Source: Flavobacterium ardleyense
Lineage (GTDB): Bacteria; Bacteroidota; Bacteroidia; Flavobacteriales; Flavobacteriaceae
Reading direction: 5' to 3'
NCBI RefSeq assembly: GCF_033547075.1
Contig: NZ_CP137891.1
Span: 558,001 to 622,000, forward strand
DNA: 64,000 nt
Below, piece after piece: positions 2,967 through 34,480 of this stretch (position 1 is the stretch's first letter; the number at the start of each line of letters is the position of its first letter). The notes beneath the pieces are model-generated. The model was not told the origin of the DNA. It searched no databases and saw only the letters and a program-made list of their open reading frames with translations. The position numbers and the translations under genes are program-made.

Positions 2967-4224
2967 TTAACAGAGAAGTTTGATTGCTAAAAGGATTTTC
3001 GAATTTGCTTTTGGTATCTCCAACAATTAGCGTTTTAAGATGAGCTGATTCAAGGTGAATCAAATCCTTATTGAAGTTGGCAACAGACACAAAATACTTT
3101 GCGCGGTTGGTCGCAACGCCCATTTTCTTAAGATGTTCGAGTGTAAGATTTTGAAATTTACGCGCATTCACAATTTTATAAGCTGATTTTACACCGATTC
3201 CAGGTACGCGCAAAATTGTTTCCAAAGCAGCAGTCTGAATATTAACTGGGAAGTCATCGATGTTTCGCAAAGCCCAACCTAATTTTGGATCTACTTCCAA
3301 ATCTAAAAATGGATTGTTTTTAGCCAAAATTTCATCAGCTTTAAATCCGTAAAATCGCATCAGCCAATCTGCCTGGTATAATCTGTTTTCTCGCACAAGC
3401 GGCACTTGACTTCCTAAACCTGGCAATCGCGCATCATTGGAAACTGGAACATATCCCGAGTAATAAACGCGTTTCATACTAAAGTTTTTGTAGAAATGAT
3501 CTGCCACTTTTATAATTTGGAAATCAGTTTCTGGACTTGCACCCACAATCATCTGAGTGCTTTGCCCTGCTGGAGCAAATTTGGGAGTAGATTTGAATTT
3601 CTTGCGCTCGTCTTTATATAAACTGATTTCGTTTTTGACAAATCCCATCGGTTTAATCATCTGCTGATGATCTTTGTCGGGAGCCAATAACTTCAAACCA
3701 GATTGAGTTGGAATTTCGAGATTCATACTCAATCTATCCGCATAAAGGCCTGCTTCCCGCATTAGTTCATCACTTGCGCCGGGAATACTTTTTAAGTGAA
3801 TATAACCATTGAATTTGTGCTCAAGACGTAATTTTTTGGCCACTCGAACTAAGCGCTCCATCGTATAATCGGCATTTTTGAAGATTCCCGAACTTAAGAA
3901 AAGTCCTTCGATAAAGTTACGGCGGTAAAAATTCATTGTCAAATCTACAACCTCATCAACCGTAAAAGCGGCTCTCTGAATATCGTTGCTTTTGCGGGTT
4001 ACGCAATACGCACAATCGTAAATACAGAAATTAGTCAAAAGAATTTTGAGTAGAGAAACACAACGTCCGTCTTCGGTATAAGTATGGCAAATACCAGATG
4101 AGGACGAATCGCCCAAACCTTTGTTTGTATTCTTGCGATTTCCACCGCTAGAAGAACAAGACACATCGTACTTTGCCGCATCGGCAAGGATTTCTAATTT
4201 CTCTTTAACTCTTTCGTAGTCCAC
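2944..4224 (-). CDS. Putative DNA modification/repair radical SAM protein (TIGR03916 type)
   Basis: 426 residues. The cluster motif CIYDCAYC (Cx3Cx2C) near residue 90 binds the [4Fe-4S]-SAM centre. A C-terminal helix-hairpin-helix (RVPGIGVKSAYKIV, about residues 341-354) suggests nonspecific DNA contact. The family is always or nearly always encoded next to the DUF4130 protein and is thought to repair or modify DNA, but the substrate is unknown. The chosen start is a GTG at 4224, which gives the conserved opening MDYERVKEKLEILADAAKYD. A -7-like TATTTTTA lies on the minus strand at 4255-4248. Confidence 0.88.
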   Translation of the reverse strand: MDYERVKEKLEILADAAKYDVSCSSSGGNRKNTNKGLGDSSSSGICHTYTEDGRCVSLLKILLTNFCIYDCAYCVTRKSNDIQRAAFTVDEVVDLTMNFYRRNFIEGLFLSSGIFKNADYTMERLVRVAKKLRLEHKFNGYIHLKSIPGASDELMREAGLYADRLSMNLEIPTQSGLKLLAPDKDHQQMIKPMGFVKNEISLYKDERKKFKSTPKFAPAGQSTQMIVGASPETDFQIIKVADHFYKNFSMKRVYYSGYVPVSNDARLPGLGSQVPLVRENRLYQADWLMRFYGFKADEILAKNNPFLDLEVDPKLGWALRNIDDFPVNIQTAALETILRVPGIGVKSAYKIVNARKFQNLTLEHLKKMGVATNRAKYFVSVANFNKDLIHLESAHLKTLIVGDTKSKFENPFSNQTSLLNDDTFLR

Positions 4225-30147: not shown

Positions 30148-31566
30148 ATGAAAATATTACTTACCGGAGCAACTGGATATATTGCGCAACGACTTTTGCC
30201 AGTTTTATTAGAGCAAGGACATCACATAGTGTGTACCGCTCGAGATGCAAGACGTTTCAGAAATCAATATAATTCTCCCAATATTGAAGTTGCCGAAGTG
30301 GATTTTCTTGATAAAAAAACATTGAAAAATATTCCCCAAGATATTGATATCGCTTATTATCTGATACATTCTATGTCTACTAACTCTGGTTCTTTTGAAG
30401 ATATGGAGCAGATTTGTGCAGAAAATTTTATCGACAGAATTCAAGAAACCAATGCACAGCAAATAATCTATTTGAGCGGAATTGTAAACGATCAAGAACT
30501 TTCCAAACATCTAAGTTCACGAATGAATGTAGAAACGATAATTTCGCGCTCCACTATTCCGTTGACAACTTTAAGAGCGGGCATAATTGTAGGTTCTGGA
30601 AGTGCTTCTTTTGAAATCATACGAGATCTTGTAGAAAAACTGCCAGTAATGATTACTCCCATTTGGTTAAAAACCAAATGCCAACCAATTGCCATCAGAA
30701 ATGTGGTGGAGTTTCTGGTAGGAGTAATTGGCCACAAAAAAGCTTATGATGCTAGCTTTGATATTGGTGGACCTGATATTCTTACCTATAAAGAGATGTT
30801 ACTAAAATTTGCAGAGATTCGTGGCCTGAAGCGATATATCTACGTTGTGCCGATAATGACTCCACGCCTGTCGTCGTATTGGTTGTATTTTGTAACATCA
30901 ACGTCTTACGCACTGGCGAAAAATCTTGTTGATAGTATGAAAATTGAGGTAATTGCTGAACCAAATGACTTGGCTACGGATTTACATATTAAACTCCTAA
31001 CCTATTCAAAAGCCATCAACCTTGCCTTCGACAAAATTGAACAAAATCAAGTTTTATCTAGTTGGAAAGATGCTCAGACTTCAAATATTTTCCGCCGTGG
31101 TATGCAACAGTATATGGAAGTTCCAACCTATGGTTGCTTTAAGGATGTTCGCACTCGCAAAACTGAAAACCCTGAACAAACATTAAATAGAATTTGGGCA
31201 ATAGGTGGAGAAACTGGTTGGTATTATGGAGACTGGCTCTGGAAGATTCGCGGATTTATGGATCAGATTGTAGGTGGGGTTGGACTTCGCCGCGGACGTA
31301 GAAGCCCTACTGACATTCGTGTAGGCGAAACATTGGATTTCTGGCGAGTTCTAATTTCTGACAAGGAAGATCAACGTTTACTACTATTCGCCGAAATGAA
31401 GCTTCCTGGTGAGGCTTGGCTAGAATTCAAATTGGATGAAGACAATACTTTGACCCAAACTGCCACCTTCCGCCCACTTGGATTGTGGGGTCGAGTTTAT
31501 TGGTATTCTGTATTGCCATTTCACGGAGTGCTGTTTAAGAAGATGATTAATAATATTGTGAAGTAA
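30148..31566 (+). CDS. SDR-family NAD(P)-binding protein with C-terminal DUF2867 domain
   Basis: 472 residues. The N-terminal Rossmann fold opens MKILLTGATGYIAQRLLPVL with the TGATGYI dinucleotide motif and lacks a clear Tyr-x3-Lys pair, as in atypical SDRs. The last 150 residues match the DUF2867 pattern (WAIGGETGWYYGDWLWKIRGF ... GGVGLRRGRR ... VGETLDFWRV). The two-domain form is widespread, but its reaction is unknown. It is cytosolic with no signal peptide. It stands alone between an intergenic gap and the RAYT-linked repeat array. Confidence 0.88.
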   Translation: MKILLTGATGYIAQRLLPVLLEQGHHIVCTARDARRFRNQYNSPNIEVAEVDFLDKKTLKNIPQDIDIAYYLIHSMSTNSGSFEDMEQICAENFIDRIQETNAQQIIYLSGIVNDQELSKHLSSRMNVETIISRSTIPLTTLRAGIIVGSGSASFEIIRDLVEKLPVMITPIWLKTKCQPIAIRNVVEFLVGVIGHKKAYDASFDIGGPDILTYKEMLLKFAEIRGLKRYIYVVPIMTPRLSSYWLYFVTSTSYALAKNLVDSMKIEVIAEPNDLATDLHIKLLTYSKAINLAFDKIEQNQVLSSWKDAQTSNIFRRGMQQYMEVPTYGCFKDVRTRKTENPEQTLNRIWAIGGETGWYYGDWLWKIRGFMDQIVGGVGLRRGRRSPTDIRVGETLDFWRVLISDKEDQRLLLFAEMKLPGEAWLEFKLDEDNTLTQTATFRPLGLWGRVYWYSVLPFHGVLFKKMINNIVK

Positions 31567-31753
31567 GATGTATTTACAATGACGGTGGTTGAGCTTGTTG
31601 ATAGCAAGACAGTGACTGTCAATTTGAAATAGTTGGGTGATCGAGACTGTTGACATTAATTGATATAAATGTTTTATTGGCTGTCTTTTCTAAACCCATT
31701 CTTATTTTTATATTTAATAACCTCTCTTGGACACTTTCTCTTCGATGGCTGCT

Positions 31754-31925
31754 CTTCTATGGTCTCTGACCTTGAAGCCGCACATATTCATATTTAAACT
31801 TTAAACTATCCTAATCGCTCTTCGACACTTGCTCTTCGATGGTCTCTGACCTCGAAGTAGCGTATATTCCTATTATACACAATCGCTCTTCGAAGGCTGC
31901 TCTTCGATGGTCTCTGACCTCGAAG
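31754..31925 (-). repeat. Left REP-like hairpin array of the RAYT locus (three units)
   Basis: Three 24-base hairpin cores at 31754-31777, 31834-31857 and 31902-31925 read CTTCGATGGTC, a short loop, GACCTCGAAG on the plus strand (the first with two changes). They are the exact reverse complement of the cores in the right array. Each is preceded 16 bases earlier by an extra TCTTCGA half-copy, and the cores are followed by CG(C/T)A(C/T)ATATTC. The array ends 116 bases before the transposase gene. Confidence 0.88.
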
Positions 31926-32041
31926 CAGCGTATATTCCTATTTAAACTCTAAGCTACTATTGCCATCGATTGTTTTAATTTTCAAAATATCTAAAGCAAG
32001 GAAACTAGATTATTTTTTTCTACATTTATATAAAAACAGAA

Positions 32042-32641
32042 ATGAATGATGGTTATAAAATTAGAAATCAAGCACTTCCACATTTTGTAACAATGACGGT
32101 TGTAGATTGGATTGACGTATTCTCTCGGAAAATATATCGTGATGTGCTAATTGAAAGTCTAATTTATTGCATAAATAATAAAGCAATGATGGTATATGGC
32201 TATGTAATTATGAGTAATCATATCCATTTAATAATTCAGTCAAAAGAGGATAAGCTATCTGATTTAATTCGAGACTATAAAAAATTTACAGCTGCCAGTA
32301 TTTTGGATAAAATTCAAACAGAGCCCGAAAGTCGAAGAGAATGGATGTTAGAAAGATTTAAATTATCAACCGAAAGTCATTCTAGAAATAAATACTATCA
32401 GTTTTGGCAATATGGTAATCATCCTGAGGAAATATATTCAAATAATTTTATGTGGTCAAAACTTGATTATATTCATCTTAATCCTGTACGTGCTGGTTTA
32501 GTAGAAAAAGCTTCGCATTACGTTTATTCAAGTGCTAGTAATTATATTAATAACTCAGGCTTAATAGCTATTCTAAAAGCAGATAATCCTATTATAGACA
32601 CTTCAAATTTAAAAAATGTTCAAAGATTTGATTTATATTAA
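32042..32641 (+). CDS. REP-associated tyrosine transposase (RAYT, Y1/IS200-like)
   Basis: 199 residues. The HUH motif is HIH at residues 60-62 (MSNHIHLI), the candidate catalytic Tyr is residue 79 in RDYKKFTA, and the family motif YIHLNPVRAGLVEKA is present near residue 140. RAYTs are single-copy relatives of IS200/IS605 transposases that bind and nick hairpin REP sequences. Here the gene lies between two arrays of one hairpin in opposite orientations (31754-31925 and 32700-33387). The frame is intact, so the protein may be active. TACATTTA at 32021-32028 is a possible -7 box. Confidence 0.93.
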   Translation: MNDGYKIRNQALPHFVTMTVVDWIDVFSRKIYRDVLIESLIYCINNKAMMVYGYVIMSNHIHLIIQSKEDKLSDLIRDYKKFTAASILDKIQTEPESRREWMLERFKLSTESHSRNKYYQFWQYGNHPEEIYSNNFMWSKLDYIHLNPVRAGLVEKASHYVYSSASNYINNSGLIAILKADNPIIDTSNLKNVQRFDLY

Positions 32642-32699
32642 AATTGACGAATTTTAAGTTAATACAAGAATTATTTAATTCAACTGCAACGAGAAGTTC

Positions 32700-33387
32700 C
32701 TTCGAGGTCAGAGACCATCGAAGAGTATCATCAGCACGGCATCAAAACGAAAAACTTATCAAAGTAAAAAAGACAAAAAGTTCCTTCGAGGTCATAGACC
32801 ATCGAAGAGCATCATCAGCACGGCATCAGAATGAAAAACTTATCAAAGTAAAAAAGACAAAAATCTGCTTCGATGTCAGAGACCATCGAAGAGCTGCATA
32901 AGTGCTACACTAGAATGAAAAAATTGTCAAAGCAAATAAGTCCAAAAGTTCTTTCGAGGTCAGAGACCATCGAAGAGCATCATCAGCACGGCATCAAAAA
33001 TGAAAAACTTATCGAATAAAAAAAGCAAAAAGTTGCTTCGATGTCAGAGACCATCGAAGAGCTGCAACAATACAGCAACAGAACGAAAACTTATCGAAGT
33101 AAAAAAAACTAAAAGTTACTTCAATTTATAATTCTGTATTTTCGCTTTATGGATTCTATTACACAGATTATTTTGGGTGCGGCGGTCGCCGGAAAGATAA
33201 GCGGGACCATCGAAGAGCTGCGCGTCAGCAGCATGGCATCAGAATGAAGAACTTATCAAAGTAAAAAAGACAAAAATCTGCTTCGAGGTCAGAGACCATC
33301 AAAGAGCATCATCAGCACGGCATCAAAACGAAAAACTTATCGAATAAAAAAAGCAAAAAATTGCTTCGAGGTCAGAGACCATCAAAG
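32700..33387 (+). repeat. Right REP-like hairpin array of the RAYT locus (seven full units and one half)
   Basis: Cores (CTTCGAGGTC, 3-base loop, GACCATCGAAG) start at 32700, 32784, 32868, 32952, 33036, 33281 and 33364; a right half-core is at 33205-33215. The first five are spaced exactly 84 bases apart. Two spacer types follow the cores: one with ATCATCAGCACGGCATC and one with CTGCAACAATAC, both continuing into GAAAAACTTATC. An 85-codon frame (32644-32901) reads through the first units because 84 is a multiple of three; it is not considered a gene. Confidence 0.92.
33149..33247 (+). pseudogene. Duplicated 5' end of the downstream hydrolase gene, trapped in the REP array
   Basis: It starts MDSITQIILGAAVAGKISG, matching the first 19 residues of the real gene at 33476 with two changes. 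At 33204/33205 the sequence switches into the right arm of a REP core and the frame ends 14 codons later. About 55 upstream bases, including the promoter region, are duplicated too (33093-33204 against 33421-33531, fewer than ten differences). The preceding two REP units belong to the same duplicated block. Confidence 0.88.
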
Positions 33388-33475
33388 AGCTGCAACAATA
33401 CGGCATTAGAATGAAAAATTATCGAAGTAAAAAAACTTAAAGTTACTTCAATTTATAAATCTGTATTTTCGCTTT

Positions 33476-34480
33476 ATGGATTCTATTACACAAATTGTTT
33501 TGGGTGCGGCGGTGGCCGAAAAGATAAGCGGAAAGACTTTGGGAAATAAAGCATTGATTTATGGAGCAATTTTCGGGACTTTGCCAGATCTTGACGTGCT
33601 TTCAGGATTCTTTTTTGACGATGTAGATGCCGTTGCTTTCCATCGCGGAATCAGTCATTCGATTTTGCTGTTTTTAATAGTTTCGCCAATCTTCGGATGG
33701 TTGATTTATAAACTTGAAAAACAGAAATTCATTACATTTACTAATGCCACTTCGATGGTGTTTTGGGTTTTACTTACGCATTCTCTACTCGACAGTTGTA
33801 CTTCATGGGGTGTTCAACTCTTCTGGCCATCGGAAGTTCGTGTCGCATTTAAATCAGTCGCTGTAGTAGATTTTCTTTATACTTTGCCATTGCTATTTTG
33901 TCTGATTATGGCGGTTAGATTGCCAAAACTGTCTCCAATACGCAGAAAATGGAATAGTTGGGGATTAATTATTAGCAGTAGCTACCTTATTTTGGGAATG
34001 GCTTTGAAAATGTTCGCTTACGCTAAATTTGAAAAAGCCACTGCTCGGCAGAACATTCCGTATACTGAAATGTCGGTAAAACCGGGATTGCTAAGTTTGA
34101 TTTTGTGGAATGCTCACGGGCAAAATGAACAAGAATATTTTATTGGAACATATTCGTTTTTCGATTCACAGCCAATTCAGTTTGATGCATATCCTAAAAG
34201 TCACGAACTGAACGCGAAATTTAAAGACCAAGTAGTGGTTCAGAAGTTAATCGATATTTCTGAAGGTTGGTATATTATTAGCGAAAACGATAATAAATAT
34301 TTTTTTAACGACCTTAGATTTGGACTTATTTCGACCTTGGATAATCAGCAACAATTTGCTTTTAGCTACGAACTTATTCCAAACGAAAGTGGAGAATATA
34401 CCGCAAAGGAAGTTAAGAAAAGCCGTCAACAAGGAATGGCGACTTTAAAAACTTTATTGAAAAGGATTGGTGGAAATTAA
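33476..34480 (+). CDS. Membrane-bound metal-dependent hydrolase (YdjM/DUF457 family)
   Basis: 334 residues. The N-terminal half has four to five membrane segments and the family metal-site motifs: MDSITQIVLGAAVAEKI, GTLPDLDVL, FHRGISHSILL, and HSLLDSCTSWGVQLFWP. Members are predicted inner-membrane hydrolases; the E. coli YdjM protein is an SOS-regulated relative. The C-terminal 140 residues are soluble and strand-rich. TATTTTCG at 33464-33471 is close to the -7 consensus. Its first codons and promoter are also present as a broken copy 327 bases upstream. Confidence 0.9.
   Translation: MDSITQIVLGAAVAEKISGKTLGNKALIYGAIFGTLPDLDVLSGFFFDDVDAVAFHRGISHSILLFLIVSPIFGWLIYKLEKQKFITFTNATSMVFWVLLTHSLLDSCTSWGVQLFWPSEVRVAFKSVAVVDFLYTLPLLFCLIMAVRLPKLSPIRRKWNSWGLIISSSYLILGMALKMFAYAKFEKATARQNIPYTEMSVKPGLLSLILWNAHGQNEQEYFIGTYSFFDSQPIQFDAYPKSHELNAKFKDQVVVQKLIDISEGWYIISENDNKYFFNDLRFGLISTLDNQQQFAFSYELIPNESGEYTAKEVKKSRQQGMATLKTLLKRIGGN

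Follow-up and report, generated by a model that had tools for sequence, protein, structure and literature searches.

A Flavobacterium RAYT gene flanked by inverted arrays of a GCT-footed hairpin, a probable RAYT-REP pair

Does the RAYT gene that lies between two arrays of one hairpin in Flavobacterium ardleyense belong with that hairpin, or does it stand among local tandem repeats by chance? We consider it highly likely that the locus is a REPtron, consisting of an intact TnpAREP/RAYT gene, of subclass 2.6 by its motifs, and outward cognate REP-like hairpins that are also dispersed in the genome, with binding, cutting and mobility that we infer.

In the window (the whole stretch of DNA analysed, 64,000 nt, bases 558001-622000 of a 3.185-Mb contig), the 24-base core TTCGANGTCAGAGACCATCGAAGA has ten matches with up to 3 mismatches, spanning 31753-33388; the maximum count in 100 shuffles of the window was 0. 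The RAYT ORF lies between inverted copies of one hairpin, as the first-pass annotation had described, with three minus-strand copies of the core to its left and seven plus-strand copies to its right (Table 1). The left cores had also been called the exact reverse complement of the right ones, which holds for two copies per side (31833 and 31901 on the left are identical to 32701 and 32953 on the right); the remaining flanking cores are 1-2 bases off. Units are spaced by 84 nt in the right array, except for one gap of 245 nt and one of 83 nt, and by 80 and 68 nt in the left array. The downstream neighbour is a ydjM-like gene, whose start lies at 33429-33531. Elsewhere in the window there is a ParD/ParE-like toxin-antitoxin pair (PF03693, PF05016; 27467-28028).

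Table 1. Features of the RAYT locus and its flanking hairpins, in window coordinates.
Feature	Position	Strand	Remark
Half-hairpin box	31737..31748	+	14 nt before the foot of left hairpin 1
Left hairpin 1	31751..31778	+ (GCT foot on + strand)	2 mismatches to core
Left hairpin 2	31831..31858	+	exact core
Half-hairpin box (GCTCTTCGAAGG)	31885..31896	+	14 nt before the foot of left hairpin 3
Left hairpin 3	31899..31926	+	exact core
RAYT / TnpAREP gene	32042..32641	+	199 aa, open ORF
Right hairpin 1	32699..32726	-	exact core; minus-strand foot is ACT, not GCT
Right hairpin 2	32783..32810	-	single loop change
Right hairpin 3	32867..32894	-	GATGTC variant; bulge able to shift
Right hairpin 4	32951..32978	-	exact core
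Right hairpin 5	33035..33062	-	GATGTC variant
103-nt duplicate of ydjM-like gene start, inside right array	33102..33204	+	94% to 33429-33531
Half hairpin, foot arm only, joined to duplicated gene start	33205..33218	-	
Right hairpin 6	33280..33307	-	single stem change
Right hairpin 7	33363..33390	-	single stem change

The encoded protein matches PF01797 (E 1.4e-5; 25.7 bits, cut-off 23) and the REP_Tyr_transpos model NF047646 (92.6 bits, cut-off 80), and contains the HUH motif NHIH (residues 59-62), WQ (122-123), YIHLNP and YSS. H60, H62, W122 and Y143 were invariant in 20 aligned sequences, Q123 varied, and Tyr143, within YIHLNP, is the candidate catalytic residue. By these motifs, and not by the profiles of the paper that defined it, the intact gene appears to be a TnpAREP/RAYT of subclass 2.6 (Quentin 2018, PMC6006769), which according to Quentin is RAYT group 5 of Bertels 2017. 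In the passages on this subclass, its members come from Bacteroidetes, carry NH[LIV]H, WQ, YIH[QN]NP and SS, lack GT[AG]G, and have beside them 'atypical secondary structures' that recur at other genomic sites (PMC6006769). The window system resembles them in NHIH, WQ, YIHLNP, YSS and its non-GTAG hairpins, and differs in having L for the Q/N of YIH[QN]NP. Those passages contain no hairpin consensus, foot, covariation or second box, although the supplementary tables may list hairpins (PMC6006769). An AlphaFold model of the protein was poor (mean pLDDT 58.7), and its fold search gave no match below E 0.001; the top Foldseek match was E. coli TnpAREP (4er8, E 5.5e-3), and ISDra2 (2xm3, E 9.5e-3) and IS608 (2vjv, E 3.2e-2) also matched. 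A sequence search of the PDB up to E 0.1 gave a single match, again 4er8 (E 0.072), a TnpAREP-REP hairpin complex with 16% identity over the aligned part; any comparison with it is limited by the weak window model. Among the guide contacts named in the relevant passages of Quentin (PMC6006769), W and Q are present in the window RAYT, and a spacing count did not line up the others.

The hairpin is about 28 nt long. On the strand beginning GCT the unit is GCTCTTCGATGGTCTCTGACCTCGAAGC, whose fold, read from the sequence, comprises six outer pairs, one bulged base, a GGTC/GACC inner stem and a 3-nt loop; in relatives the plan is a G[C/T]T foot, a stem and GTC-N3/4-GAC, and the bulged base of the window's genome is absent in many of them. 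Across the genome, 40 copies (up to 4 mismatches) share about 28-30 nt, beyond which their flanks are locus-specific. The GT[AG]G tetranucleotide of canonical REPs is absent at the foot, where GCT stands instead, in keeping with the first-pass annotation of a repeat unlike the classical REP/BIME in a probable Flavobacterium. This foot reads GCT(C) in almost every own-genome copy and GCT(C/G/A) across the close clade. Counts made with a foot-demanding pattern are circular for the foot; with that demand dropped, GCT stood outward in 58 of 77 nearest hairpins and inward in 18 of 77. The excess of G.T over A.C in the folding-strand count (16 vs. 5, not independent evidence) is suggestive as a pointer to the strand that folds. 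CRISPR, integron and terminator readings were set aside by eye: spacers within an array are near-copies of each other, and no T-run follows the hairpin. An Rfam search of 31500-33600 gave no match up to E 1.

The first-pass annotation regarded the locus as self-contained. It is not, since 29 of the 39 copies in the 3.185-Mb genome (up to 3 mismatches; backward control 0) lie outside the window, in six other clusters at which no Y1 transposase match was found. The seven clusters hold 10 copies in the window, 2 at ~664.1 kb, 9 at 667-668 kb, 2 at 884-887 kb, 12 at 1510 kb, 3 at 1565 kb and 1 at 1645 kb. The genome has six Y1 transposase matches, and the window gene is the only one at a hairpin cluster. 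If scattered copies mark true REPs, as had been suggested, these are REP-like in their dispersal (29 of 39 in other clusters) but not in their low copy number or in their mostly direct tandem arrays. The arrays have locus-specific spacers, and the alternating inverted pairs of the REP/BIME type are not the arrangement in this genome. In four arrays, all units included, cores differ by 0.052, 0.014, 0.028 and 0.056 substitutions per site and the 40 nt on either side by 0.14-0.33, a contrast somewhat inflated because units were picked by core similarity (up to 3/24 mismatches), which caps core divergence. The local flank shared within arrays implies local duplication, and the constant core implies constraint or conversion.

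Such arrays could also be local tandem repeats and nothing else, products of slippage or recombination with the RAYT among them by chance. Direct tandem arrays with locus-specific spacers would be expected on that account, as would the duplicated gene start inside the right array and the six clusters that have no RAYT; cores several-fold less diverged than their flanks would not. The relatives of the window gene also speak against it, and we rate it as improbable.

The window RAYT has matches in 160 of 299 genus genomes (E ≤ 1e-5). Fifty loci were taken from the 55 best RAYT matches (five were left out, two for lying at a contig end and three for an internal stop) and scanned within 700 nt of the gene for the pattern G[C/T]T-arm-GTC-N3/4-GAC-arm. 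An outward hairpin of this plan was present downstream in 48 of the 50 and upstream in 43 (on both sides in 42), so the link between gene and hairpin is not chance. The nearest downstream hairpin pointed outward in 44 loci and inward in 4, and was absent in 2; upstream the corresponding numbers were 35, 10 and 5. Some of the inward hairpins are palindromic and match in both directions, or belong to an inverted pair. At one locus (L116) the pattern scan found a hairpin on neither side. Two locus pairs among the 50 overlap (G290, G132), and the number and spacing of flanking hairpins vary between loci. Plan hairpins also accompany three close RAYTs (E ≤ 7.6e-87) that belong to a different family within the order (L196, L197 and L199), by pattern downstream only in L196. 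In some relatives (L085, L181, L182) there are inverted hairpin pairs, REPIN-like and 77-88 nt apart.

The stems carry compensating changes and follow the RAYT tree. Covariation was measured in 32 hairpins over the outer six pairs only, because MAFFT misaligned the bulge against the loop. Paired cells (96.3% vs. 79.2 shuffled), cells changed on both sides (44 vs. 16.4) and the covariation score (0.582 vs. 0.263; best slid structure 0.291) were each reached in 0 of 500 shuffles; the other two of the five measures fell within the shuffles (159 of 500 for pairs changed on both sides and 59 of 500 for further pair types). A maximum-likelihood tree was built from 53 RAYTs, of which 48 had a typed hairpin and 5 were distant. 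On it, the first five stem bases required 13 changes, where shuffles averaged 33.5 and 0 of 200 came as low; near-copies add to this clustering. The window gene grouped with three CTGCG-stem genes (support 99/83), and its own CTTCG stem is one exchanged pair away from CTGCG; its place is less sure because its branch is long (0.32) and two further CTGCG genes lie elsewhere on the tree. For the link between gene and hairpin, the tandem-repeat reading is thus contradicted, both by the hairpins downstream of close RAYTs and by stems that compensate and track the protein. For the lengthening of arrays after seeding it may be right: ordinary tandem duplication explains array growth more simply, and in one such event the beginning of the ydjM-like gene was copied as well.

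Does the hairpin also go with the gene from genome to genome? A degenerate pattern, blind to bulged hairpins with a 4-nt loop, found 898 hairpins in 173 of the 299 genus genomes, against 13 for the backward pattern. Of 57 genomes with a close RAYT (E ≤ 1e-55; own genome counted), 53 contained hairpins, as did 66 of 103 with only distant RAYTs and 54 of 139 without any RAYT match; the medians were 4, 1 and 0 hairpins per genome, respectively. Rank tests, ignoring relatedness, gave p 9e-15 (close vs. none) and 2e-6 (close vs. distant). The 54 RAYT-free genomes with hairpins count against a strict link, and they also fit relics of lost genes, which is how we read them. The core itself (up to 2 mismatches) was absent from all 59 other genomes searched, of which 36 belong to the same genus. 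In a one-genome-per-species collection, searched in a way that may omit records near the window's own genome, the exact degenerate core occurred only in Flavobacterium tegetincola and, once, in a Labilithrix MAG. We judged the Labilithrix match to be chance; viral matches were likewise judged chance by eye, and the stretches inspected look like coding sequence. The first-pass annotation expected the core to keep to genomes with this RAYT type, and F. tegetincola departs in part from this, with two isolated exact cores on one contig (L143, L145; one without the GCT foot) and RAYT matches from distant clades only (best E 4.8e-46); we read these cores, too, as relics. One of them lies upstream of what look by eye like a toxin-antitoxin pair and recA.

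Distant RAYTs mostly have hairpins of other kinds. A second RAYT in the window's genome (L035; G000:C1:1240247, ~1240.2 kb, open frame of 104 aa) has a different inverted repeat on either side, with an exact arm of 56 nt and the hairpin GATAGCGCGGATT-NNN-AATCCGTGCCCGC, which has 28 genomic copies (up to 3 mismatches; backward control 0). The 1645-kb array (L072, ~3289-3660) mixes copies of both hairpin families, several of them degenerate. Of 20 distant RAYT loci, judged by eye, nine had TAGCGCGGATT-like inverted matches (some of only 11-14 nt), four had CTGGTGCTCG-like ones and one had another kind, with none clear at the remaining six; among these, L132 carries a close-plan hairpin 19 nt downstream. 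Different RAYT clades therefore mostly pair with different hairpins, as passages of Quentin 2018 (PMC6006769) and Nunvar 2010 (PMC2817692) state for other groups.

This pairing bears on a reading in which the hairpins act mainly in RNA or regulation, as terminators, controls of RAYT mRNA or protein-binding sites, and take no part in DNA cutting by the RAYT. Such roles would suit the conserved stem-loop and its mostly intergenic placement: of 40 copies, 34 fall in no mechanical ORF of at least 150 aa, and the other six fall in two ORFs, both in the 667-668-kb array, that translate largely into repeats. The empty Rfam search speaks against them, as do the inverted placement around the gene and the clade-specific hairpins, the last two of which indicate recognition by the protein. 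We therefore hold a mainly regulatory role to be unlikely, while a regulatory side role is still compatible with recognition. Finally, a composite IS200/IS605-like element moving as a whole, with the hairpins as subterminal ends, could be imagined from an HUH/Tyr1 enzyme with hairpins on both sides and from the several close homologues in some genomes (e.g. the neighbouring pairs in G132 and G290), but is highly improbable given the single close copy in the window's genome, flanking hairpins that differ in number and spacing between loci, the lack of an adjacent gene at most genomic hairpins, and an NF047646 score above cut-off.

The preferred reading, a REPtron, raises the matter of what marks the end that the RAYT would recognise. 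Many hairpins have beside them a box that resembles GCTC-NN-CRAAG and often continues into WGTTC; the box shares the strand of the hairpin and lies upstream of it, by 14-28 nt in the window's genome and mostly by 24-50 nt in relatives. Six own-genome stretches contained 18 isolated copies of the foot plus 5' arm (shuffle mean 1.6) and 2 of the 3' arm (shuffle mean 1.9), and 13 of those 18 precede the foot of a full copy by 14-28 nt. At first these half hairpins looked like slippage products; a conserved box is likelier because the box recurs in other species. In the 50 close loci, 178 hairpins were scanned for GCT(C/G)NNC(A/G)AAG; it occurred within 110 nt 5' in 52 and 3' in 11, far above a background of 0.0066 per 110 nt. 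It was seen in 23 of the 50 loci, and copies are not independent where arrays were duplicated. In 40 stretches among the matches listed it lay 5' of 14 of 54 hairpins (nine of these boxes at 25-26 nt) and 3' of 3 of 54. By the strict pattern, most hairpins are without a box. A looser search for half copies (39 five-prime vs. 32 three-prime) took in many degenerate full hairpins and is not relied on. We propose that the box is part of the recognised end. More tentatively, the end may be two-part, a GCT-footed hairpin plus the half-hairpin box, unlike that of GTAG REPs; the box could then be a site of cutting or guide pairing as in IS608, and, because RAYT and hairpin co-vary across dozens of species, the code by which one recognises the other could perhaps be read from this natural series.

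How might such a pair work? Single-strand binding, cutting near the foot and rejoining elsewhere are carried over here from E. coli TnpAREP and IS608. By that analogy, the HUH/Tyr protein would recognise the single-stranded hairpin together with its GCT foot, in place of GTAG, and would cut near the foot via Tyr143; rejoining would make the hairpin mobile and seed copies elsewhere. Local arrays would then lengthen by tandem duplication along with their local flank, and the hairpin would be held constant by selection or conversion.

Much of this arrangement is familiar. In the gammaproteobacterial REPtron, as described in passages of Nunvar 2010 (PMC2817692), a RAYT is flanked by two inverted REPs with scattered copies and compensating stems, and REP clusters have unrelated inter-REP segments. 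The window system shares the inverted flanking, the scattered copies, the compensating stems and the clusters with unrelated spacers (PMC2817692). It differs in its foot (GCT vs. GT(A/G)G), its direct tandem arrays and its separate RAYT clade, and its copy number is below the 'usually >100' of that paper's abstract, yet within the range of its Table 1 (PMC2817692). The IS200/IS605 TnpA proteins (IS608, ISDra2) are similar in fold matches and as hairpin-binding HUH/Tyr1 enzymes; in contrast to them, the window RAYT fits the REP-associated model and its hairpins are dispersed without the gene. Passages of PMC3733652 and PMC12306157 contain no Flavobacterium RAYT, a full-text search for RAYT with Flavobacterium returned no paper, and broader searches returned none by title among the matches listed. 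Thus, the kind of pair seen in Flavobacterium is known, and its hairpin design and matching changes look new in the main texts and titles that the search covered.

We conclude that this is a genuine RAYT-REP pair from a known but little-described branch of the RAYTs, in which GCT takes the place of GTAG at the foot. The best-studied RAYT-REP pairs are those of gammaproteobacteria, whose REPs have a GTAG foot; the Bacteroidetes branch now gains a defined hairpin plan, a different foot and a candidate second box. With a natural series of matched protein-hairpin pairs at hand, it becomes testable how a RAYT chooses its hairpin, and also how REPs spread and outlive their enzyme.
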